Shown: one piece after another, positions 2,532 through 14,150 of the stretch | Layout: each line of letters opens with the position of its first letter | Numbering within the stretch: the stretch's first letter is position 1 | Assembly (NCBI GenBank): GCA_014804565.1 | Contig: JAAUZN010000036.1 | Coordinates: 86,110-100,259 of the forward strand | Direction: 5' to 3' | Source of the DNA: Lachnospiraceae bacterium | GTDB taxonomy: Bacteria; Bacillota; Clostridia; Lachnospirales; Lachnospiraceae | DNA: 14,150 nucleotides | Program-made: the position numbers and the translations under genes | The notes under the pieces: generated by a model | The model's input: only the letters and a program-made list of their open reading frames with translations | Told to the model about the DNA's origin: nothing | Database searches by the model: none

Positions 2532-2596
2532 AAAATCACCTTTCCGCTATAATAAGGTTGTTCAAGCCAATATATAGCGAAAGGAAAGGTGATTTT
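2532..2596 (+). promoter_or_regulatory. Inverted repeat masking the tnpA ribosome binding site
   Basis: Two perfect 14-bp arms at 2532-2545 and 2583-2596 (AAAATCACCTTTCC and its complement) are extended inward by GCTATA/TATAGC (2546-2551 and 2573-2578). In the mRNA the right arm contains the Shine-Dalgarno (GGAAAGG), so folding would hide it. IS200 itself is known to use a 5' hairpin of this kind to block transposase translation and stop read-through transcription. That the same control works here is inferred from position and pairing. Confidence 0.75.
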
Positions 2597-2597
2597 A

Positions 2598-3053
2598 ATG
2601 GCCAATAAGGCAAATAGTTTAGCACACACCAAGTGGATGTGTAAATACCACATAGTGTTCACTCCTAAGTATAGGAGAAAAATAATATATAATCAATACA
2701 AAGAAAGTATCAGGGATATATTAAAGCAGCTATGCGCGTATAAGGGAGTAGAGATACTGGAAGGGCATCTCATGCCGGATCACATCCATATGCTAGTAAG
2801 CATACCACCGAAAATAAGTGTATCACAATTCATGGGATATCTGAAAGGAAAAAGTGCGCTTATGATATTCGATAAGCACGCAAACCTGAAGTACAAGTTC
2901 GGTAACAGACATTTCTGGGCGGAGGGATATTATGTGAGTACAGTAGGGCTGAATGAGGCAACTATAAGAAAGTACATTCAGGAACAAGAAAGTCACGATA
3001 TAGCCATGGATAAATTGAGTGTGAAAGAGTATGAGGACCCCTTCAAGGGGTAG
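2598..3053 (+). CDS. tnpA: IS200-type Y1 transposase
   Basis: This 151-residue protein is a single-domain HUH/Y1 transposase that cuts and joins single-stranded DNA at IS hairpins. The HUH motif is visible as HIH at residues 62-64 within HLMPDHIHMLV. The helix with RKYIQEQ places the likely nucleophilic tyrosine at Y126 and a metal-binding glutamine at Q130, matching Y127/Q131 described for the Helicobacter ISHp608 enzyme. The length is normal and no motif is lost, so it may be active. The ATG at 2598 was chosen over an in-frame GTG at 2589 because the Shine-Dalgarno (GGAAAGG, 2583-2589) sits correctly only for the ATG. The last codons include a CCCC/GGGG hairpin running into the stop codon. 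Confidence 0.93.
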   Translation: MANKANSLAHTKWMCKYHIVFTPKYRRKIIYNQYKESIRDILKQLCAYKGVEILEGHLMPDHIHMLVSIPPKISVSQFMGYLKGKSALMIFDKHANLKYKFGNRHFWAEGYYVSTVGLNEATIRKYIQEQESHDIAMDKLSVKEYEDPFKG

Positions 3054-5526: not shown

Positions 5527-5565
5527 CAAAAAAGAACCTATAAGTAATATACCTATAGATTCTTT
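5527..5565 (-). terminator. Terminator of the original tRNA-Asn/rRNA unit
   Basis: Arms at 5531-5542 and 5554-5565 (AAAGAACCTATA and its near complement, one mismatch) are followed on the minus strand by a T-run (T6 opposite 5528-5533). The hairpin sits immediately after the tRNA 3' end at 5570, as expected for the end of the rRNA-tRNA transcript before the element inserted. Confidence 0.7.
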
Positions 5566-5569
5566 ATAC

Positions 5570-5626
5570 CTCCCCGAGTAGGGCTCGAACCTACAACCCC
5601 GCGGTTAACAGCCGCGTGCTCTACCA
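5570..5626 (-). pseudogene. tRNA-Asn 3' fragment left by integration
   Basis: These 57 bases equal the 3' portion of tRNA-Asn: discriminator G, acceptor strand, T-arm, anticodon arm with GTT, and part of the D-arm. They are identical to the same part of the intact gene at 13763-13834. Homology stops after CTACCA (5621-5626). The missing 15 bases of the 5' end are found at 13924-13938, beyond the element. The fragment has no 5' half and is cut off from the rRNA promoter, so it should be inert. Confidence 0.92.
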
Positions 5627-5650
5627 GCGTTGCGGTTACATACCGTAACC
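5600..5650. other. attL: left junction of the integrated element
   Basis: The left part is tRNA-Asn sequence (attB half). The right part from 5627 is element sequence carrying the attP half-site GGTTACATACC (5634-5644), which also lies in a local repeat GGTTAC/GTAACC (5634-5639 and 5645-5650). The shared core CTACCA occupies 5621-5626. The inverted partner GGTATGTGACC is found at the far junction (13895-13905). Confidence 0.85.
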
Positions 5651-5786
5651 ACTCCCTGACAGAGTGTTATGTCCTGATCACATCCGAGGCTGTCTTTTCT
5701 TTATGTTTTTACTCTGTGATCTATGAACAGCAACAGCCATAATGAAACATATCCGTCTTTTATGATAGAGTACCTCTTCCCACTTT

Positions 5787-7397
5787 CTACCCGACCGTTT
5801 CCACAGGCAGATCATTTCCTCCCCATTCGGTACAGAACTGTCTGTAGGTCATGTTGAGTTCCACCCTGATCTGATAGCCCCGTCCCACTTCAATGCGTCT
5901 GAACAAGTGGCAGGTTATCATCTTCTGCTGCTCCAGTGATGCTTCGTCAAACTCTTCCGCCCATGACCTGAACCGTTCATATTCCGGGATGATCAGGTCG
6001 ATCCCCTGTCTCTTCTGCTCTTCCTCTGCCCTAAGTTCTTCCAGCTTCTTCTCCGCATCTGCGATCTTAACTTTTACCGTCTGGATCGCCTGTGAGAGAT
6101 CCTCCGCCGCATAGCTGCTCTCTCCCGTCAGTGTCTTTCCGATCTCAAGCTGAAGCTTTGTGAGCTGCTCCCGATTCTTAGAAAGTTCCATGTCCAGCTT
6201 TTTCTGCCTCGCCCTGTTCCCTGCCATCTGCTTCTTAAATACTGCCTGCAGTTTTTCCTCCTCCGGCGCACCATCCATGCAGCCGAATATCTTCCGTATG
6301 ATCTGCTTTATGCTCTCATCCACCCGTTCTGCTTGATAGGTGGTCTGCCCGTCACACTGACAAAGCTTGCGGCTCTTATGGTAGCAGGAATACTTGATCT
6401 GATCCACCGAGTACACGGTGCCATCAGCCCTTGTATAGCTGTCCCGGTAGCGGATCGTGGTCAGCCTCCCGCCACAGTGGGCACAGAACACATTCCCCGA
6501 AAGCATCGCCTGCCCTTTGGTCTGCAAAGCGATATGTCGCTTTTCTTCATTCTTGTTCTGCCTCTGCTCCAGAATGTAAAGGATACGCTCATAGGTATCG
6601 TCACTGCGCAGCCTGAGTGCCTCAAGCTGTGGTGAAGTCGTTCCGTCCGCAAGCCTCCCGCAGTAGAATGGGTCGCGCAGGATGCGGATCACCTTGATGC
6701 TGGTGAACTTCCCGCCGCCCGGCGCATACCCGTTCTTATTTAAGAAGTCCGCCATCCGGTAGGAACCATACCCTTTATGGATCGTCATGTCATCGATCAT
6801 ACGGAGCACTTCACTCTCCGCCGGGTCGATCTCATATTTTTTTATCTTCGCGCCTTTCCGGTTCACAAAGCCGCTGTCCACAAGACGATAGCCGAACCTG
6901 ACCGGCCCGCCTGTGTATAACCCTTCCAGCGCCATCTGCTGCATCTTGCTCCTGATCCTTATGGAAGTCTTCTCACTCTCCCCGGATGCCTGCCAGAACC
7001 TCAGATAATTCATCAGCTTGTCCACATGGCTGTTGAAGCACTGCTGTCCCTCCTGTGTACTCCACACCTCGATACCGTGCTTTGCAAACCATTCCACCAC
7101 AAAGGGCGTCTCGTCGTCGATCCTCCCGATCCGGTCAAACATGAACACTAAGAGGATGTCGAACTCTTTCTTCTGGGCCGCTTCCTTTAACTCCTGTATG
7201 GCGTCCCTGTCCTTCGCCGATACCTTGTACCCCGAAACGCCTTTTTCGGAAAATTCCTTCAGGATCGCCCAGCCTTCCTGTCTTTCTGCAAAATCATGGC
7301 ACGCCTTTTTCTGCATGGGGATGTCATTCTCATCCTTATCGTTCTTATCTACCTGCTTTTTTGTTGATACTCTGTAAAGACAATAAACCCGTTTCAT
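5787..7397 (-). CDS. Large serine recombinase (TnpX-like integrase)
   Basis: The 536-residue protein has the full large serine recombinase layout. Residues 1-150 are the resolvase catalytic domain with YRVSTKKQ, making S11 the nucleophile, and FDRIGR at 87-92 supplying active-site arginines. Residues about 160-275 are the recombinase domain. A zinc ribbon has cysteines at 305 and 308 (CAHC) with partners at 338 and 346/348. A coiled coil runs from about 375 to 465. These enzymes cut attP and attB at a central dinucleotide and rejoin them; excision usually needs a partner factor. The start was set at 7397 (MKRVYCLYRVST) because GGAGG lies at the right spacing, rather than at an upstream in-frame ATG at 7415. 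The gene ends 160 bp from attL. It looks intact. Confidence 0.95.
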   Translation of the reverse strand: MKRVYCLYRVSTKKQVDKNDKDENDIPMQKKACHDFAERQEGWAILKEFSEKGVSGYKVSAKDRDAIQELKEAAQKKEFDILLVFMFDRIGRIDDETPFVVEWFAKHGIEVWSTQEGQQCFNSHVDKLMNYLRFWQASGESEKTSIRIRSKMQQMALEGLYTGGPVRFGYRLVDSGFVNRKGAKIKKYEIDPAESEVLRMIDDMTIHKGYGSYRMADFLNKNGYAPGGGKFTSIKVIRILRDPFYCGRLADGTTSPQLEALRLRSDDTYERILYILEQRQNKNEEKRHIALQTKGQAMLSGNVFCAHCGGRLTTIRYRDSYTRADGTVYSVDQIKYSCYHKSRKLCQCDGQTTYQAERVDESIKQIIRKIFGCMDGAPEEEKLQAVFKKQMAGNRARQKKLDMELSKNREQLTKLQLEIGKTLTGESSYAAEDLSQAIQTVKVKIADAEKKLEELRAEEEQKRQGIDLIIPEYERFRSWAEEFDEASLEQQKMITCHLFRRIEVGRGYQIRVELNMTYRQFCTEWGGNDLPVETVG

Positions 7398-7404
7398 CAC
7401 GCCG

Positions 7405-7428
7405 CCTCCGTACATCTTTTTTGTACGG
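7405..7428 (-). promoter_or_regulatory. Hairpin overlapping the recombinase ribosome binding site
   Basis: On the minus strand CCGTAC and GTACGG (7423-7428 and 7408-7413) form a 6-bp stem with an A-rich loop, and the 3' arm shares two bases with the GGAGG Shine-Dalgarno (7405-7409). Pairing could lower recombinase translation. A second GC-rich hairpin (CCGGGG/CCCCGG, 7468-7483) lies in the same leader. Function is inferred. Confidence 0.4.
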
Positions 7429-7556
7429 GACCGCGCTGCTGTTTCCTATTCACTTTTCAATGTGCCGCCGGGGAACGCCCCGGTACATATATCATACCGC
7501 CCGTTCCCCTTTTCTGCAACACATCTTTTCGGAATAGCGGCGCGGCCCTTCTCCTG

Positions 7557-7736
7557 TCATCCTGCCTTGGCATATGGGGGATCCCTCTGCAGGCGTTCCC
7601 TGTATGCTTCCGTTAGGATGTCAAGGATCACGGCTTTTACGCCTGCGCTCTCCTCTGCGCTGAAGGTGAGCGTGATCACTGGATCGTCAGTATGAAATTG
7701 AATGACCGGCGCGCTTTCTCTTTTCCTGTTTCCCAT
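7557..7736 (-). CDS. Small TnpW-like protein upstream of the recombinase
   Basis: This 59-residue protein starts MGNRKRESAPVIQF and ends with a run of charged residues. It has a short beta-strand region (PVITLTFS) followed by one helix (SAGVKAVILDILTEAYRERL). The start at 7736 is chosen over the longer open frame to 8006 because AAGGAGGG sits just upstream and because a strong terminator (7865-7903) lies inside the longer frame. Size, position beside a large serine recombinase and strand-helix layout resemble TnpW-type proteins of Tn4451 relatives. This is a weak similarity judged by eye, and the role of such proteins is not clear. It is probably co-transcribed with the recombinase; the 159-bp spacer carries hairpins that may tune recombinase expression. 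Confidence 0.6.
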   Translation of the reverse strand: MGNRKRESAPVIQFHTDDPVITLTFSAEESAGVKAVILDILTEAYRERLQRDPPYAKAG

Positions 7737-7783
7737 CGGCTCCCTCCTTCCCTCTGATATTTTCGAGATGGGCATGTAGGTCT

Positions 7784-7795
7784 GGTCTATAGACC
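7784..7795. promoter_or_regulatory. Perfect palindrome, candidate operator before the tnpW-like/recombinase genes
   Basis: GGTCTATAGACC is a perfect 12-bp palindrome 48 bp upstream of the tnpW-like start. It lies just after an AT-rich stretch (TAATTATATAG on the minus strand) that could be a -10 region. An extra GGTCT lies next to it. It could bind a dimeric regulator or be cut by the recombinase's accessory factor. No regulator gene can be assigned to it. Confidence 0.4.
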
Positions 7796-7864
7796 TCCCT
7801 ATATAATTAGCCGTTGGGAAGGGGGTTTTGGTCCGTATTTTTTTACAGGACATATATTTTGAGA

Positions 7865-7903
7865 CAAAAAATAGCAGGGACAAAACATTTTTCTTATCCC
7901 TGC
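7865..7903 (-). terminator. Rho-independent terminator between the DUF1413-like gene and the recombinase module
   Basis: On the minus strand GCAGGGA and TCCCTGC (arms at 7897-7903 and 7874-7880) enclose an A/T-rich loop and are followed by ATTTTTT. It should stop transcription coming from the DUF1413-like and exporter genes before it reaches the recombinase, so the recombinase module needs its own promoter between 7737 and 7865. Confidence 0.75.
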
Positions 7904-8062
7904 CCTTCTTCTCATACATATATTTGACGATACTTTCCATATCAGTTAGCCGTGTTTTTTCTCCTACCGAGTAATTGGAAATTCGGTGAATATCCACTGA
8001 AAACACGAGAAAACTTCTAGAATTATTTCTGACAAAGCGTATACCTGATATATTCTACGATT

Positions 8063-8488
8063 TCAGTCAATAAGAGTTTGATTAAGTACGCTTGCTAATT
8101 TCTCAACATCTGCTCCCGATTTAAGAGCCATTTCACACAAATCCAGTCCAGACGTCCCAATACTTACAAATATCATTCCTTCTTCAATTATTTTCATTTC
8201 CATAACCCCTGTTTTTATGAAGCAATTCTTCTGCGAGAGTGGTTTGAATGTCCATCCATTAACCAATCTATATTCCTGCTGTCCTGATGAATTTTTGCTA
8301 AGCGCTTGGAGCTTGTCCTGGTTTTGCCTAACATAATTCATGAATAGTGTTCCTAGGGTTAATCTTTCCGCCCTATCTTGAGCGTTCCAAATATGCCCCT
8401 TGAATAAATCTTTGACGATAAAAACTTCTCCATCATTGAGATTACCCAGTTCGATAATGGCCTGCTCTAACATTTCTTGTGCTGTCAT
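8063..8488 (-). CDS. DUF1413-like protein with extra C-terminal segment
   Basis: The protein has 141 residues and is soluble. Residues about 1-75 (MTAQEMLEQ, GEVFIVKDLFKG, WN, RLTLGTLFMNYV) fit the DUF1413 family as I remember it, a short domain common in Firmicutes and on mobile elements and of unknown function. Residues about 90-141 (MKIIEEGMIFVSIGT...LASVLNQTLID) look like a second small unit joined to it. The start at 8488 is chosen because AAAGGATG precedes it and because the perfect promoter at 8522-8550 would place the transcription start close to the 23-codon N-terminal extension of the longer frame. The gene stands alone between the exporter pair and the recombinase module. A role in control of the element is possible but unproven. 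Confidence 0.68.
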   Translation of the reverse strand: MTAQEMLEQAIIELGNLNDGEVFIVKDLFKGHIWNAQDRAERLTLGTLFMNYVRQNQDKLQALSKNSSGQQEYRLVNGWTFKPLSQKNCFIKTGVMEMKIIEEGMIFVSIGTSGLDLCEMALKSGADVEKLASVLNQTLID

Positions 8489-8521
8489 AAACACACATCC
8501 TTTCCGCGTTTTTATAGTCAT

Positions 8522-8550
8522 ATTATAATCACTATTAACATGAATGTCAA
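8522..8550 (-). promoter_or_regulatory. Perfect sigma-A consensus promoter for the DUF1413-like gene
   Basis: On the minus strand TTGACA (8545-8550) and TATAAT (8522-8527) are separated by exactly 17 bp. This is the full consensus for the housekeeping sigma factor, and the expected transcription start near 8515 leaves a leader of about 27 bases to the ATG at 8488. Confidence 0.88.
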
Positions 8551-8713
8551 TATGCATATTTCTATTTTAGGAGAAAGGATTAATGTACCATAGTCAGAAT
8601 GCATCTCTAATTTTTCTATAATCATTCCAGTTATTAAGTGTTTCCAAAAGAGGTTACATATGTTCTGCTACAACTGCATTCCTATCAGAATTTTTCAATA
8701 ACTGGCAAGCAAT

Positions 8714-8854
8714 GGATTAGGATATCCTTTTCGGATGTCCTAATCCCCGCTTCACCGCCTCCGGCGTCTCGCTTTGCTTGTTGGGGACACCCCAAACCCC
8801 GGTGAAATTCGCTTCGCGCATTTCACGAACACGCCCTCCGGCGTGGCTTTTTTT
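8714..8854. other. Cluster of hairpins, possible oriT/mobilisation relic
   Basis: Four inverted repeats follow each other: GGATTAGGATATCC with GGATGTCCTAATCC (8714-8727, 8733-8746, one mismatch), TTGGGG/CCCCAA (8781-8795), GTGAAAT/ATTTCAC (8802-8826, with an inner CGC/GCG) and CACGCC/GGCGTG (8830-8845) followed by T7. GC content jumps compared with the AT-rich genes on either side. Such arrays beside a nick site are typical of oriT regions of mobilisable Clostridia elements, but no relaxase gene is present. The whole 8558-9044 interval contains no convincing gene. A Shine-Dalgarno and ATG near 8583 (plus) opens only a 12-codon frame. Confidence 0.45.
8830..8854 (+). terminator. Rho-independent terminator on the plus strand
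   Basis: A 6-bp GC-rich stem (CACGCC/GGCGTG) with a CTCC loop is followed by GC and seven T residues. No plus-strand gene lies upstream within the element, so it may be left over from a lost gene. It could also shield the exporter genes from antisense transcription. Confidence 0.55.
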
Positions 8855-9044
8855 ACCACTTATTTATTTTACGGACTCTGCGCAAATCCATCTGTCGATA
8901 TCCGTCTCATGCTTTTGTCTTTGCAGTTTTATAAAGAACCTGCCTAACAGCCTCTCCTCTTAGTGACTGATTGTATCAAATCTCAAGCCTCATTTATACA
9001 GGCTATGTTTGTAAATATCTGCCGGGAAAGTTGAGTTACATACT

Positions 9045-10925
9045 TTATGATATATCCATCTTATCTGCATAATGCCTTGCCTGCGCGAGCCACAGTTCTT
9101 TATATTTTCCAGGTTTAGTGACAAGGTCATCATGATTTCCCTGCTGAACAATCTCACCTTTATCCATCACAATAATTTCATCACAGAAACGACATGTTGA
9201 CAGACGATGGCTAATGAATATGGTTGACTTGTCACCGACAACTTTATCAAGTCTGGTGTATATTTCATGCTCCGTTATGGGATCAAGCGCTGCCGTAGGT
9301 TCATCCAGGACAAAGATAGCTGCCCCCTTATATACTGCTCGGGCCATGGCAACCAATTGCTCCTCACCACCAGATAATTCGACTCCATCCTCATCATAAT
9401 CGTGATATATTGTCTGTTCCAGCCCCTTAGATAAACGGTCAAGCTTTGAAGCAAACCCTGATGCACGCAGACTTTTATCGACTCGGTCTGCATCATATTC
9501 CTCAGAAGCCGCTACATTCTGCCCCAGAGAAAACGCAAGCAGCCTAAAATCCTGAAAAACAACGGAAAACAATTTGATATACTCAGCATAACTATAGTCG
9601 GAAATCGGATGATTCCCCAACATGATCTGCCCCTTCGTTGGTTTATATAATCCGCATAACAGTTTTACTAACGTTGTCTTGCCGGAACCATTCATTCCGA
9701 CAATAGCAATTCTTCGTCCTGATCGGATCGAAAATGATACATTATGAACCGCATCCTTCTCACTTTCCGGATAATGAAAACTCACATTTTCAAACCGTAT
9801 TTCCGGATTATCAACAAGTTCCTGACCGACAGATAACTCACCTTCATCCTTCTGCTCAGGTAACGTCATATATTGGAAATACCTCTTCAAATGTTCATTA
9901 TTATTACGCAGATCCGTAAAAATCATTGAACATTCACTGAACGCAAGGATCATCATCGTAACAGAAGAATATGCCATAACCACATCACCAATATTTACCG
10001 TCCCGGACATCGCCTTTAACCCTATTAACAGATAAACGGTTCCACCCATCAAGGCGCTCAATAAAAGTTTGATGCCATCATACTTGTTTGAAGCACTCTT
10101 TTCACGCTTGTCGCCATCTGAAAAAGGGATGTAACAACGGTTCAATGCTTCTTCTACAATCAGTTTCCTTTGGGAGAATATCCTGATATCCTTTGCCGCT
10201 TTCTCGTCAGACAGATAATCCAAAGTATAAAAATTTCCATATCGATGATAACGAGCCCCATTTGAATAAACTTCAAATGCTACATCAAACAACTTCCCTG
10301 TCATTTTTGCTGATATCCAAACGCTGACAGCTATAAGACCTACCAGAATAAAAATCGCGTAAGGAGAGTTCACCACTCCATATATACCTGTAAATTCCCT
10401 GTCTGATGCCATAAAGAAAATATCTGCACACAACACGATTCCAATAAGCGCAGAACACAGGTTTCTCACCATAATCTCCATATCCCAGTAGAGACTTGCC
10501 ATGCCAGCCCCTGTCGCACCGCTATTATCAGAAACCTGATCGCGCAGCCCTCTTATTTCAGGATCTTCTATATTCACATATGGCAGTCTATGACCTTTTT
10601 CATTCAGCAGTATCTCCTGAGACGTAAAAAGCTGATGATAGCCAACATCTATTCTTTTTTTTAAATAAGAGGATAATGCCGTCAACAGCAACGTTGTAGT
10701 TATTGCCAGCAAAATATAACTAGTCAATAATTTTATGCTCTGCTCTCCGGCAAGCTCATTGATCATACGCGACGACATATATACCGGGACATATGGTGTC
10801 AATGCCACAAGGAAAGAATTGAAAATTACCATCTGCATTTGACCGGGCAGAATGGAATCAAATTCCTTCATTCCACGAAATATGAAACTAAGATCCTCTC
10901 TTAAACTTCTCTCATTCTTCTTCAA
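9045..10925 (-). CDS. ABC exporter subunit B (fused membrane and ATPase domains)
   Basis: The 626-residue protein is a type I ABC exporter half-transporter: six membrane helices in about residues 25-340, then an ATPase domain. Walker A is GMNGSGKTT (410-418), the Q-loop glutamine is Q458, the signature is LSGGE (517-521), Walker B is FVLDE with catalytic E542, and the switch histidine is H573. All are canonical, so this subunit can contribute an active ATP site. The start codon is TTG at 10925, with AAAGGAAA nine bases upstream and the partner's stop only 18 bp before it. The two are therefore translated from one mRNA and most likely pair as a heterodimer. The exported substrate (drug, peptide or lipid) cannot be inferred. 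There is no peptidase domain as in bacteriocin exporters. Confidence 0.94.
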   Translation of the reverse strand: MKKNERSLREDLSFIFRGMKEFDSILPGQMQMVIFNSFLVALTPYVPVYMSSRMINELAGEQSIKLLTSYILLAITTTLLLTALSSYLKKRIDVGYHQLFTSQEILLNEKGHRLPYVNIEDPEIRGLRDQVSDNSGATGAGMASLYWDMEIMVRNLCSALIGIVLCADIFFMASDREFTGIYGVVNSPYAIFILVGLIAVSVWISAKMTGKLFDVAFEVYSNGARYHRYGNFYTLDYLSDEKAAKDIRIFSQRKLIVEEALNRCYIPFSDGDKREKSASNKYDGIKLLLSALMGGTVYLLIGLKAMSGTVNIGDVVMAYSSVTMMILAFSECSMIFTDLRNNNEHLKRYFQYMTLPEQKDEGELSVGQELVDNPEIRFENVSFHYPESEKDAVHNVSFSIRSGRRIAIVGMNGSGKTTLVKLLCGLYKPTKGQIMLGNHPISDYSYAEYIKLFSVVFQDFRLLAFSLGQNVAASEEYDADRVDKSLRASGFASKLDRLSKGLEQTIYHDYDEDGVELSGGEEQLVAMARAVYKGAAIFVLDEPTAALDPITEHEIYTRLDKVVGDKSTIFISHRLSTCRFCDEIIVMDKGEIVQQGNHDDLVTKPGKYKELWLAQARHYADKMDIS

Positions 10926-10943
10926 TTATCGGTTTCCTTTCCA

Positions 10944-12746
10944 TCAATCAGTGTAGTATTGACTTTGAATCCGGAACATTTCAGCATATTTTCTATTATT
11001 CGCCATCAATTCATCATGGTTCCCTGTTTCTGCAATACCTTTATCATCAAGCAGGATGATACGATCGCAAAAACGTGTGGACGAAAGTCTGTGGGAAATA
11101 AATATCGCCGTCTTGCCACGAGTCAGCTCATTATATGACTGGTAGATATGACTCTCAGCAATGGGATCAAGTGCTGCTGTTGGTTCATCAAGGATGATAA
11201 CAGGTGCATTCTTATACAAAGCCCGTGCAAGCAATAACTTTTGTATTTCGCCGCCTGAAAATTCTGTACCATTCTCAGAAATATATCTAACCAGATTTGT
11301 TTCAAGCTCTGATGGAAGTGATTCGATTTTTTCTTTAAGCCCTGCTAACGAGATACATTCTTCGATACGGTTATAATCTTTATGCCCGCCCATATTAAGC
11401 GCTATATTATCTGCTATGCTGACAGGCAAAACGCCGGAGTCCTGGAATACCGCCGAAAACAGTTCATAATAATCATCACGAGCAAACTGGTTAATTTCAA
11501 CGTCATTAATATATACATTACCCTCTGACGCACGTAATAAGCCGCAGATAATTTTGATCAAAGTCGTCTTTCCGGCTCCATTACTCCCAACGATTGCAAG
11601 TTTCTCACCCGCCTTTATATGTAGGTTTATGCCCTCCAGCACATTTCCTTTCGCAGTATCATAAGCATAAGAGACATTTTCAAGTCTGATCGATACAGTA
11701 TCATTCGAGTCCGGCAGCCGTTTTGTCCCCTCACGGTTCAAGGAATCCGGAATATCAACGAAATCTCTAAAATCGGTCACATAATTATTTGCTTCTGCCA
11801 TTTCCCCAATACTTACTGCTAATTGGGCAAACCAGTCCCCCAGCCCTGTAATTGCCACAAAATAGAGGGCAAAATCACCAATTGTTATATTATTCTGCAA
11901 TACCATATAGATTAAATAGGCATAAGCCCCGCCATCTCTGACAAATACAAGTACAATATTAAAAAGATTCACAATAAACTGGCGGTCTGCTACTTTTGTC
12001 TGTATCTGAATATTTTCCCTTTTAGCTTTAAATGCCATAGCCCGCAGCCAGCCTGCCATTGAATAAAGTCTGATATCTTTACCTATGTCAAGTCCCCTGG
12101 TCCGGTAAGCAATATAATTAAGTTTCCTGTTCGCTTTAGCAATATCGTCCTTCGCCGCCTGTTTTACCCTTTCCACATACAGCGCACCGCCTAGATTAAA
12201 CAGATAGAAAATAAGAAGTATGGGAACGATAAACGGATTGAGATTGATAATGACCGCACTATAAGAAACAAATCCAGCTGTATTAATAAGCATCGTGACA
12301 AGTCTCGGAAAATATGTGCCTACCCCTTCTCTGCTCTCACCCTCCAGCGCCTCACGGGCTTTTTCTGCTTTCTGCTTTCCCGATTCCGACGTAAAGGCTT
12401 CATAATCCATATCAGCTGCTTTATTCAGCCATATACAATGCATATGAGTAAGAATAAAAGCATTCGCGCAATGTTCTGCTGTATTATGCGCATAAAGTTC
12501 CAAAATAAACATAAAAACAAGAAGTATGGTGACCGCTATAATCGTTAGGATAAATTCTTTAATTGTAGCTGGTTTTTGGATCGCATCCAAAACAATTTTA
12601 GGTGTATAGACAGTAATCAGCGCAACTATTACTTTCGCCGGAACTTCCATAAAAGATATCAGTACGCTACTCATACTGAATCTTTTTAATTCCTGAAAGA
12701 TATATTTGAAATTACTGTATAACGAATATCCTTTCTTTTCTTGCAT
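10944..12746 (-). CDS. ABC exporter subunit A (fused membrane and ATPase domains)
   Basis: The 600-residue half-transporter is the first gene of the exporter operon. Membrane helices fall in about residues 25-315. The ATPase domain has Walker A GSNGAGKTT (387-395), Q-loop Q435, signature FSGGE (496-500), Walker B VIILDE with catalytic E521, and switch histidine H552. Unlike many heterodimeric exporters, neither subunit shows a degenerate catalytic glutamate, so both ATP sites may be active. The ATG at 12746 has AGGAG with eight bases of spacing. It has no N-terminal peptidase domain. No regulator, immunity gene or modifying enzyme accompanies it inside the element; only short open frames (12782-13031) precede it. 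Confidence 0.94.
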   Translation of the reverse strand: MQEKKGYSLYSNFKYIFQELKRFSMSSVLISFMEVPAKVIVALITVYTPKIVLDAIQKPATIKEFILTIIAVTILLVFMFILELYAHNTAEHCANAFILTHMHCIWLNKAADMDYEAFTSESGKQKAEKAREALEGESREGVGTYFPRLVTMLINTAGFVSYSAVIINLNPFIVPILLIFYLFNLGGALYVERVKQAAKDDIAKANRKLNYIAYRTRGLDIGKDIRLYSMAGWLRAMAFKAKRENIQIQTKVADRQFIVNLFNIVLVFVRDGGAYAYLIYMVLQNNITIGDFALYFVAITGLGDWFAQLAVSIGEMAEANNYVTDFRDFVDIPDSLNREGTKRLPDSNDTVSIRLENVSYAYDTAKGNVLEGINLHIKAGEKLAIVGSNGAGKTTLIKIICGLLRASEGNVYINDVEINQFARDDYYELFSAVFQDSGVLPVSIADNIALNMGGHKDYNRIEECISLAGLKEKIESLPSELETNLVRYISENGTEFSGGEIQKLLLARALYKNAPVIILDEPTAALDPIAESHIYQSYNELTRGKTAIFISHRLSSTRFCDRIILLDDKGIAETGNHDELMANNRKYAEMFRIQSQYYTD

Positions 12747-12781
12747 ACTTTTCGCTCCTGATAACTATAAATCATATGTTT

Positions 12782-13031
12782 TTAATAGATCGTCATACCC
12801 ATGTGCTTCTCATTTTCCCATAATTCTGGACAAATAGCAGTTAGAAACCACAGTAGCTCATCTTCTTTTCTACATAACATTGATCTAAAATATAGAAAAG
12901 ACAGACATAATAACGTTTTCCCAAATACGCTCTGTCAGTTCATTTCTCTCATTATACCGATACTCTACCGTCTCGTCAACGGAACCGTTCTGATACTTCT
13001 CTCTTATCAGACATGGCGGAATCGATCTTAA
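12782..13031 (-). pseudogene. Possible decayed small gene upstream of the exporter operon
   Basis: The 428-bp stretch between TnpV and the exporter holds no convincing whole gene. On the minus strand one frame stays open for 48 codons (13031 to 12885) and reads like protein (IREKYQNGSVDETVEYRYNE) but has no usable start or Shine-Dalgarno. A second frame gives a 32-codon ORF from ATG 12880 to 12782, with two cysteines and the run DELLWFLTAICPELWENEKH, again without a Shine-Dalgarno and ending 35 bp before the exporter. Frameshifts in one older gene would explain both. A short peptide or leader is the alternative. Confidence 0.3.
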
Positions 13032-13081
13032 TCAGATATGCTTCAAAAGATAAATACTTATATAACCATTTTTTCCACACC

Positions 13082-13126
13082 GTAAAAAGTCTGGAATCGC
13101 CTTTTCAGACTATCCAGACTTTTTAC
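13082..13126 (-). terminator. Terminator after tnpV (bidirectional)
   Basis: Perfect 14-bp arms (GTAAAAAGTCTGGA at 13082-13095 and its complement at 13113-13126) flank a 17-base loop, with T-rich arms on either strand. It lies 49 bp past the tnpV stop and separates that gene from the exporter operon, which must have its own promoter. Confidence 0.7.
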
Positions 13127-13174
13127 ATTTGATTTATTTTTCAGTCTTTAAAATCCTGCCTTTTGCAAATCACT

Positions 13175-13510
13175 TTACTGATACACGATTTCCCGCGGCA
13201 CTACCTCTTCTGCCATCGCTCTCAGTGCATTGACCTCCCGCACCCAAGCTATCTGATCCAAGGCTTTCAGTGCCTCGTCTACACCCTGCCTCTCCATCAT
13301 CTTTTTAAGCAGATATTCCAATTCTTCCTCCGCCTGCCTATCAATCTTCTGCAGATGAGCCGTAAGGTTCCCCATTAAGAGCATTGCCGTATATGTCCCA
13401 TGGTGATGCTCACGCAGGAAACGTTCTCTCAACTCCTCATACCGCCCTATCTCTTCCTCCTCTTCTTCACTTGTACATATTGATGTGTTACGTTGCTGGA
13501 GAAATTGCAT
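13175..13510 (-). CDS. tnpV: TnpV family transposon-encoded protein
   Basis: The 111-residue protein is charged and helical. The core IGRYEELRERFLREHHHGTY, then MLLMGNLTAHLQKIDRQAEEE, and the ending LDQIAWVREVNALRAMAEEVV follow the TnpV pattern: Y..L...YL..H, a middle helix leading into an AE-rich segment, and WV..MN..R..AEE. TnpV was named in the chloramphenicol transposon Tn4451 of Clostridium perfringens and often accompanies large serine recombinases; its role is not established, and it is not needed for basic excision as far as I recall. The start at 13510 is supported by GGGGAGG eight bases upstream. It is slightly shorter than usual relatives, mainly at the N-terminus, where there is an acidic run of six glutamates. 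Confidence 0.8.
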   Translation of the reverse strand: MQFLQQRNTSICTSEEEEEEIGRYEELRERFLREHHHGTYTAMLLMGNLTAHLQKIDRQAEEELEYLLKKMMERQGVDEALKALDQIAWVREVNALRAMAEEVVPREIVYQ

Positions 13511-13728
13511 AGCTAATCCCTCCCCGAAGCTATTTCCAAGTAATCCACACTCAAAAGCTTACCGGCGGAAAAGAAAATATCTCCGTCCGCAGCTTCCGGC
13601 TATGATAAAAGTGAAATAAGAAGAGCAACGCTGTCCCTGCCTGTTTCCGGTTACCAGTCACATGGCCTCATTTGCAGCCATGCGATCTATTTCCTTGTTT
13701 GATGATATAAATTTTGTTTATAACAAAA

Positions 13729-13757
13729 CCCGTAAACATTGATGTCTACGGGCTTTT
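13729..13757 (-). terminator. Terminator of the element-borne tRNA-Asn
   Basis: CCCGTA and TACGGG (13729-13734 and 13747-13752), with an inner ACA/TGT pairing, are followed on the minus strand by TTTTGTT and on the plus strand by CTTTT. The hairpin lies 10 bp past the tRNA 3' end. It should stop rRNA-driven transcription before it enters the rest of the element. Confidence 0.72.
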
Positions 13758-13762
13758 CTCAA

Positions 13763-13834
13763 CTCCCCGAGTAGGGCTCGAACCTACAACCCCGCGGTTA
13801 ACAGCCGCGTGCTCTACCATTGAGCTATCGAGGA
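13763..13834 (-). tRNA. tRNA-Asn (GTT), intact copy inside the element
   Basis: The 72-base gene folds fully: acceptor stem TCCTCGA with TCGGGGA (one T-G pair), D-stem GCTC/GAGC, anticodon loop CTGTTAA with GTT, T-loop GTTCGAGC, discriminator G, and no encoded CCA. It is identical to the tRNA rebuilt from the two broken pieces at 5570-5626 and 13924-13938, and even the two bases before its 5' end match. It sits inside the element, on the same strand as and directly downstream of the 23S gene, so read-through from the rRNA promoter can express it. Confidence 0.95.
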
Positions 13835-13892
13835 TCATTATGCAGCCTCTTAAAAATACTGGCTGATTTTTACTTTTCCTGTCCAGCTCTTT

Positions 13893-13938
13893 CCGGTATG
13901 TGACCATTACGGCTGCCCTACCATTGAGCTATCGAGGA
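13893..13938. other. attR: right junction of the integrated element
   Basis: The element side carries the half-site GGTATGTGACC (13895-13905). The core CTACCA is at 13918-13923, and tRNA-Asn sequence resumes at 13924. Joined to the left-end inner flank, the two half-sites are inverted repeats symmetric about position 13918, the first base of the core. Confidence 0.85.
13918..13938 (-). pseudogene. tRNA-Asn 5' fragment left by integration
   Basis: These 21 bases match the 5' end of tRNA-Asn (acceptor strand, D-stem and start of the D-loop); the last 15 beyond the core are the part missing from the fragment at 5570-5626. It is transcribed with the 23S gene but cannot form a tRNA. Confidence 0.9.
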
Positions 13939-13993: not shown

Positions 13994-14056
13994 CCACTGA
14001 TTATGCGGAGTCTTTGAGGTAACATACCCTCAAAACCGAAACTGAATGATCCTTGT

Positions 14057-14150
14057 GGTTAAGCCCTCGACCGATTAGTACACGTCAGCTGCACACATTA
14101 CTGCGCTTACACCTCGTGCCTATCTACCTCGTACTCTCCAAGGGGTCTTA
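14057..14150 (-). rRNA. 23S ribosomal RNA, 3' end (partial)
   Basis: Read on the minus strand, the last 94 bases contain the conserved 23S ending: GTGTAAGCGCAGTAATG, then TACTAATCGGTCGAGGGCTTAACC. The mature end is at about 14057. The rest of the gene lies beyond the window. Confidence 0.96.

Follow-up and report, generated by a model that had tools for sequence, protein, structure and literature searches.

The window analysed here is a 14,150-nucleotide (nt) stretch of the Lachnospiraceae bacterium assembly GCA_014804565.1 (contig JAAUZN010000036.1, positions 86,110 to 100,259), in which an 8.3-kb element (5627–13917) separates the two pieces of a tRNA-Asn gene lying behind a 23S rRNA gene. 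Along the minus strand, the direction in which the rRNA operon (rrn) is transcribed, the 23S rRNA end (14055) is followed after 116 nt by the 5′ piece of the tRNA, with no other Rfam match, and hence no 5S rRNA, in between. Next come a spacer, a complete tRNA-Asn gene with a terminator-like hairpin, genes for a TnpV-like protein, two ABC transporter proteins and a large serine recombinase and, at the far end, the 3′ piece of the host tRNA-Asn with its native terminator-like hairpin. The gene beyond this second hairpin, named as DUF4299 in a preliminary description of this DNA, is weakly like that family and scores below the Pfam cut-off (27.4 versus 31 bits). Elsewhere in the draft genome tRNA-Asn gave a single match, at the start of contig C60, with its first two bases lost at the contig end.

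The preliminary description had placed tRNA-Asn pieces at 5570–5626 and 13924–13938 and had read them as a gene split in its D-arm, and truly broken, by an ~8.3-kb element whose large serine recombinase lies just inside its left end. The pieces lie at these positions and, joined at the very short shared core CTACCA (5621–5626 and 13918–13923), give 72 nt identical to an intact tRNA-Asn; the recombinase gene is also where it was put, and its product carries Resolvase, Recombinase and Zn_ribbon_recom domains. Size, D-arm position and short core therefore stand, but "truly broken" does not: a complete, identical tRNA-Asn, not spotted earlier, lies inside the element (13763–13834), 83 bp from its right end and on the rrn-transcribed strand. 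Because the element holds such a copy by its right end, tRNA-Asn function probably survives, with the whole gene replaced rather than its 3′ end rebuilt. In all seven element right ends that were folded, the whole tRNA was followed by a hairpin with a U run; a simple consensus scan picked out neither a promoter nor a terminator at the element right end and so missed this hairpin.

Table 1 Features of the split tRNA-Asn locus, in order of rrn transcription, with the attachment (att) arms and the homologous locus of genome G081.
Feature	Position	Strand	Basis or remark
3′ end of 23S rRNA	14055–14150	−	Rfam RF02541, 71.2 bits; upstream of target tRNA
Host tRNA-Asn 5′ piece, nt 1–21 including shared core (attR side)	13918–13938	−	Identical to whole tRNA nt 1–21
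Spacer, 83 nt, from 5′ piece to whole tRNA	13835–13917	−	Homologous spacer in G081
Complete element-borne tRNA-Asn, anticodon GTT	13763–13834	−	ARAGORN; Rfam RF00005, 67.7 bits
Terminator-like hairpin and U run after element-borne tRNA	~13725–13757	−	RNA fold of a 63-nt stretch, −19.8 kcal/mol
TnpV-like protein	13175–13510	−	Pfam PF14198, 104.1 bits; homologs at right ends in G081 and G018
ABC transporter ATP-binding/permease protein (cargo)	10944–12746	−	Pfam PF00005
Second ABC transporter protein (cargo)	9045–10925	−	Pfam PF00005
DUF1413 protein	8063–8557	−	Pfam PF07205, 64.5 bits
Open reading frame (ORF), 149 aa	7557–8006	−	No Pfam, NCBIfam or PADLOC match
Large serine recombinase, 542 aa	5787–7415	−	Pfam PF00239, PF07508, PF13408
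Host tRNA-Asn 3′ piece, nt 16–72 including shared core (attL side)	5570–5626	−	57/57 nt identical to whole tRNA
Terminator-like hairpin after host 3′ piece (native terminator)	5530–5564	−	RNA fold, −17.1 kcal/mol
Left att arm (GGTTACATACCG on + strand)	5634–5645		Conserved beside junction in related loci; inverted repeat
Right att arm of predicted attP (CGGTATGTGACC on + strand)	13894–13905		Inverted repeat with 5634–5645
G081 contig C8, same anatomy	5′ piece 115–139; whole tRNA 219–290; TnpV 688–969; recombinase 12050–13678; 3′ piece 13841–13897

The recombinase of the window has a full-length frame free of internal stops, its Resolvase, Recombinase and zinc-ribbon domains all score above the Pfam cut-offs, and its sole match in the PDB is the TP901-1 integrase (E = 5e-6). 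We compared 14 distinct loci, the window among them, whose recombinases share at least 57% identity with the window protein (the window, L036, L048 in G081, L049–L055, L072 and L149–L151); L147 was counted as L049 and L148 as L050, repeats being judged by equal contig numbers, positions and flanks. In 12 of the 14 the D-arm junction (GGTAGAGCA of tRNA-Asn) lies shortly past the recombinase gene, at a distance of 125–275 bp in nine of the twelve, among them the window (161 bp by direct reading). Fourteen recombinases with 28–42% identity (L060–L070 and L144–L146) had no GGTAGAGCA-type junction in the flanking DNA examined, where L144 and L146, with less than 120 bp beyond the gene, say little; with 12/14 close relatives set against 0/14 distant ones, chance junctions were rejected. 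Neither an integrase of the tyrosine type nor a relaxase was found among the six element ORFs scanned.

A long inverted-repeat attP is what is expected for serine recombinase sites. We assembled the predicted attP from the left arm, the core and the right arm; it contains an inverted repeat around the 6-bp core, whereas attB has no matching repeat. In the window, 17 of 29 positions are paired about centre 4.0, at the final G of GGTAG. Uninterrupted inverted-repeat runs reach 12 in G081 and in the genome of Bacterium 1XD21-70 (G104), 15 for family C and 20 for family D, lengths that 0 of 2000 shuffles attained in each case; the longest run of the window is 8, reached by 6 of 2000 shuffles, the tested row having one extra base. 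A symmetry test over even centres only gave no signal (17554 of 20000 shuffles as good), whereas the odd-centre test did. The repeats centre between the A and the G of GGTAG in families C and D and half a base further on in families A and B, and because they centre there the crossover is likely to fall on the non-palindromic AG dinucleotide in the D-arm. The Tn4451 recombinase swaps strands at 2-bp identical sequences, as described in PMC5704250.

The same anatomy is complete on a single contig of G081, a second species of the genus, with another host flank and other cargo, and there too the pieces join to the sequence of the whole tRNA. Past the whole tRNA, the window and G081 agree at 84% over 322 bp, and G104 and G102, another Lachnospiraceae genome, at 98% over 710 bp. 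In G104, the 5′ piece (L075) and the recombinase-side 3′ piece (L051) are of the 73-nt type to which both other tRNA-Asn copies of that host belong, and the complete tRNA after the 5′ piece is of a 72-nt type that matches the G102 tRNA in full; G105 too has a whole tRNA unlike either of its pieces. Because its sequence differs from the replaced pieces in these two genomes, the whole tRNA, as judged by sequence comparison, travels with the element. Two inserted elements as the source of the whole tRNA were rejected, the DNA right before that tRNA being the element's spacer and not a left att arm.

Cargo varies from element to element. The window element carries an ABC transporter pair, and that of G081 type I restriction-modification with an AAA ATPase; Fic and PIN proteins are encoded in G018, a DNA methylase with a restriction endonuclease in G032, and a Schlafen/AlbA_2 protein in G022. 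For the window transporters PADLOC gave weak or partial matches to ATPases, and we do not count them as defence genes. The left-arm pattern, with up to one mismatch, occurred at 12 places in 11 of the 77 same-genus genomes, of which G087:C13 and G005:C26 look like chance matches, leaving 10 genomes; the right arm, with up to three mismatches, occurred in 3/77. The attR pattern was found in 2/77 and, in two separate scans, in 2/397 genomes of the family sample, and with a shorter spacer in 0/77. Neither of two scans of viral contigs found the att arms; of the two viral matches of a further scan, one, L140, is a case of neighbouring tRNA genes. In a plasmid search no record covered 80% of the query, and the matches listed fall in its tRNA part.

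Three further loci touch on these right ends. L141 (1–700, G061:C51) is a third attR of the window's family, with a run of N after the second TGGTAG. L073 (G101:C22, in the genome of the G081 contig) is a second element right end; it shares 85% identity over 702 bp with the first one, and its whole tRNA lacks a preceding 5′ piece. At 2640 on the minus strand of L043 (G018:C23), a tRNA-Asn-like remnant behind the end of the family's spacer is perhaps a relic right end.

Elements of this kind stack, because replacement of the whole gene amounts to a fresh target. In locus L082 of G102, a unit of 5′ piece and 49-nt spacer occurs twice in a row ahead of a whole tRNA; the 3′ piece is doubled in L049 and in L053. 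In G022 (L034), the DNA flanking the 3′ piece matches the right ends of the G104 and G102 elements at 88% over 455 bp; on this comparison the G022 element sits within an earlier element's own tRNA, which gives the family a comparison of occupied and empty site. Similarity was lower for the first 3′ piece of L049 (70% over 244 bp with L034 and 69% over 252 bp with L120). Four tandem tRNA-Asn 5′ pieces of 102 bp each precede an intact tRNA-Asn in the viral contig L139 (IMGVR_UViG_3300028886_000314, ~12561–12982, minus strand), with a tyrosine integrase close by; the stacking is of the same kind and may belong to another system.

We consider it very probable, on these comparisons, that the locus holds an integrative element whose serine recombinase inserts it into the D-arm of tRNA-Asn behind 23S rRNA and which has a replacement whole tRNA and terminator aboard. 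Insertion would destroy the host tRNA copy, and the element would bring a complete tRNA-Asn with its terminator, set 83 bp in from the right end and oriented along rrn, so that the rrn transcript would run from 23S rRNA through the dead 5′ piece and the spacer into the whole tRNA and stop. Given its rrn orientation and the hairpin and U run behind it, this copy would still yield tRNA from the rrn transcript, and rRNA read-through would be kept out of the cargo. Each insertion would restore the target, and the same spot could be entered again. A serine attP is unlike attB beyond the core and could not supply a matching tRNA half as a tyrosine attP does, which may be why a whole tRNA copy is carried beside attR. 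The recombinase is presumably active, in integration as in excision.

Several observations weigh against this interpretation. An empty allele of the window's own site, with the locus uninterrupted, was sought and not found among the 77 same-genus genomes; the whole 999-bp flank query was matched by G018 only, and at that site lies a 3.1-kb element in which the window-type recombinase was not found. No 5′ piece precedes the whole tRNA in G018 and G022, and an additional step is needed to explain this. The DNA right before the whole tRNA in these two genomes also precedes another tRNA-Asn in the same genome, and the two loci may be trapped elements that lost attR when rRNA operons exchanged sequence. 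Two of the 14 recombinases have no adjoining junction: L052 retains a tRNA 3′ piece with the junction lost, and L072 has no junction within 400 bp of the intact recombinase, with a recombinase remnant and a junction about 3 kb further. The two ends in G104 are on different contigs and need not belong to one element. Finally, the folding model described below has the window's dead 5′ piece disturb the whole tRNA (theft 0.95).

The same G018 and G022 elements, without window-type recombinase and without 5′ piece, together with recombinase remnants in G032 and G095, would fit a locus that is an immobile remnant of past insertions, in which tRNA copy and recombinase no longer act. We regard this as unlikely for the window, where no stop interrupts the full-length recombinase frame and each end retains its att arm and its core. 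That the whole tRNA is instead the resident second copy of a tandem pair, one of whose members the element broke, is very improbable. The window, G081 and G102, where whole tRNA and pieces are identical and so uninformative on tRNA origin, could not by themselves discriminate; the tandem pair is rejected by the discordant tRNAs of G104 and G105, that of G104 being unlike the two other host copies as well, and elements in different hosts have in common the DNA that flanks the whole tRNA on either side. Insertion by another recombinase, for example a tyrosine integrase since lost, with the serine recombinase as cargo, has a parallel in the stacked 5′ pieces near a tyrosine integrase in L139 and is hardly credible given a serine recombinase adjoining the junction in 12/14 relatives from different hosts, a short core and a predicted attP that is a long inverted repeat.

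We also considered the RNA-level fate of the leftover 5′ piece. Segment 13877–13889 of the window spacer can pair with it, and in a duplex test of spacers against tRNA nt 1–13 the fraction of 1000 shuffles as good was 0.024 for the window, 0.021 for G081, 0.003 for G104, 0.004 for G102a and 0.006 for G105, so that three unlike spacer families (window/G081, G104/G102a and G105) pair with the same tRNA strand; the test failed for G102b (0.521), G061 (0.735) and the L139 copies (0.718, 0.733, 0.297 and 0.742). In a pair-probability test of nine copies with 400 shuffles each, the shuffles as good numbered 157 for the window, 155 for G081, 253 for G061, 0 for G104, 1 for G102a, 160 for G102b, 21 for G105, and 53 and 104 for two of the four L139 copies (Fisher's method with one copy per family, p = 0.007), which clearly supports the G104/G102a family only and G105 less so. 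In whole-transcript folding of six copies, the whole tRNA kept its own acceptor stem in G105 (0.93), G104 (0.73) and G081 (0.49) and lost it in the window (0.00), G102a (0.03) and G102b (0.00). The model is fragile, because G102a and G104 differ in outcome despite nearly the same spacer. Theft of the acceptor strand is itself plausible, because with shuffled spacers the dead piece took the 3′ acceptor strand in 189–200 of 200 cases. We put forward, tentatively and at rather less than even chances, that the element also neutralises the leftover 5′ piece at the RNA level, and that such islands are self-repairing tRNA grafts that swap in a foreign species' tRNA. Part of the neutralisation would be a spacer segment complementary to nt 1–13 of the broken tRNA and folded first in transcription, a pairing that might prevent theft of the 3′ acceptor strand of the downstream whole tRNA by the dead piece.

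Among known systems, Islander-type tyrosine-integrase islands, as outlined in PMC4383910, likewise split a tRNA gene, leave a displaced fragment and restore the gene from the island. There, by that outline, the island fragment completes the host gene, whereas here a whole second gene is paired with a serine recombinase; unlike a tyrosine-integrase tRNA island, with its long repeat, the window element has a very short shared core and its whole gene 83 bp inside the right end, and the host 5′ piece stays dead. Serine recombinases with a tRNA target are called rare in PMC3218068 (2011), which describes those of eight Mycobacterium actinomycete integrative and conjugative elements (AICEs), all in the same tRNA-Leu gene, and phage phiRSM1 in the 3′ end of tRNA-Ser. 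The window element shares this type of target; it differs from phiRSM1 in that the phage is said to use the 3′ end, the hosts and tRNAs are others, and the portion of that paper at hand mentions no whole replacement gene. According to the part of PMC5704250 available, site-specific integrative and mobilizable elements with serine recombinases disrupt dispensable genes and Tn4451 has low integration specificity. Elements of the Tn4451 type resemble ours, on that account, in the large serine recombinase, the TnpV-like protein and very short direct repeats; unlike them, the present family has one conserved target, with 12/14 relatives at the same D-arm junction, and the window element lacks a relaxase among its scanned ORFs. 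Tycheposons, as excerpted from PMC10872708, are also cargo-carrying islands with a tRNA at the border, and, unlike the window element, use a tyrosine recombinase (further literature, in excerpt: PMC12884075, PMC10654092 and PMC9652813).

We found no description of a serine-recombinase element with a whole replacement tRNA in the literature searched, subscription papers lying mostly outside it, and the combination appears to be a new variant of tRNA-targeting islands. It would be another way to use a conserved gene as a door when the recombinase cannot share a long target repeat; the whole gene and terminator would make the target reusable, with varied cargo stacking behind rRNA genes. Such elements could move tRNA genes between species, and their recombinases form a family whose tRNA target is both defined and conserved.

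Two minor observations lie apart from the family. In G048, a genome of the same order, a 5′ piece at 1378 on the minus strand of L026 lies 127 bp ahead of an intact tRNA-Asn, and the spacer between them is unrelated. In the window itself, an IS200-like transposase (Pfam Y1_Tnp) is encoded outside the element, at 2589–3053 on the plus strand.

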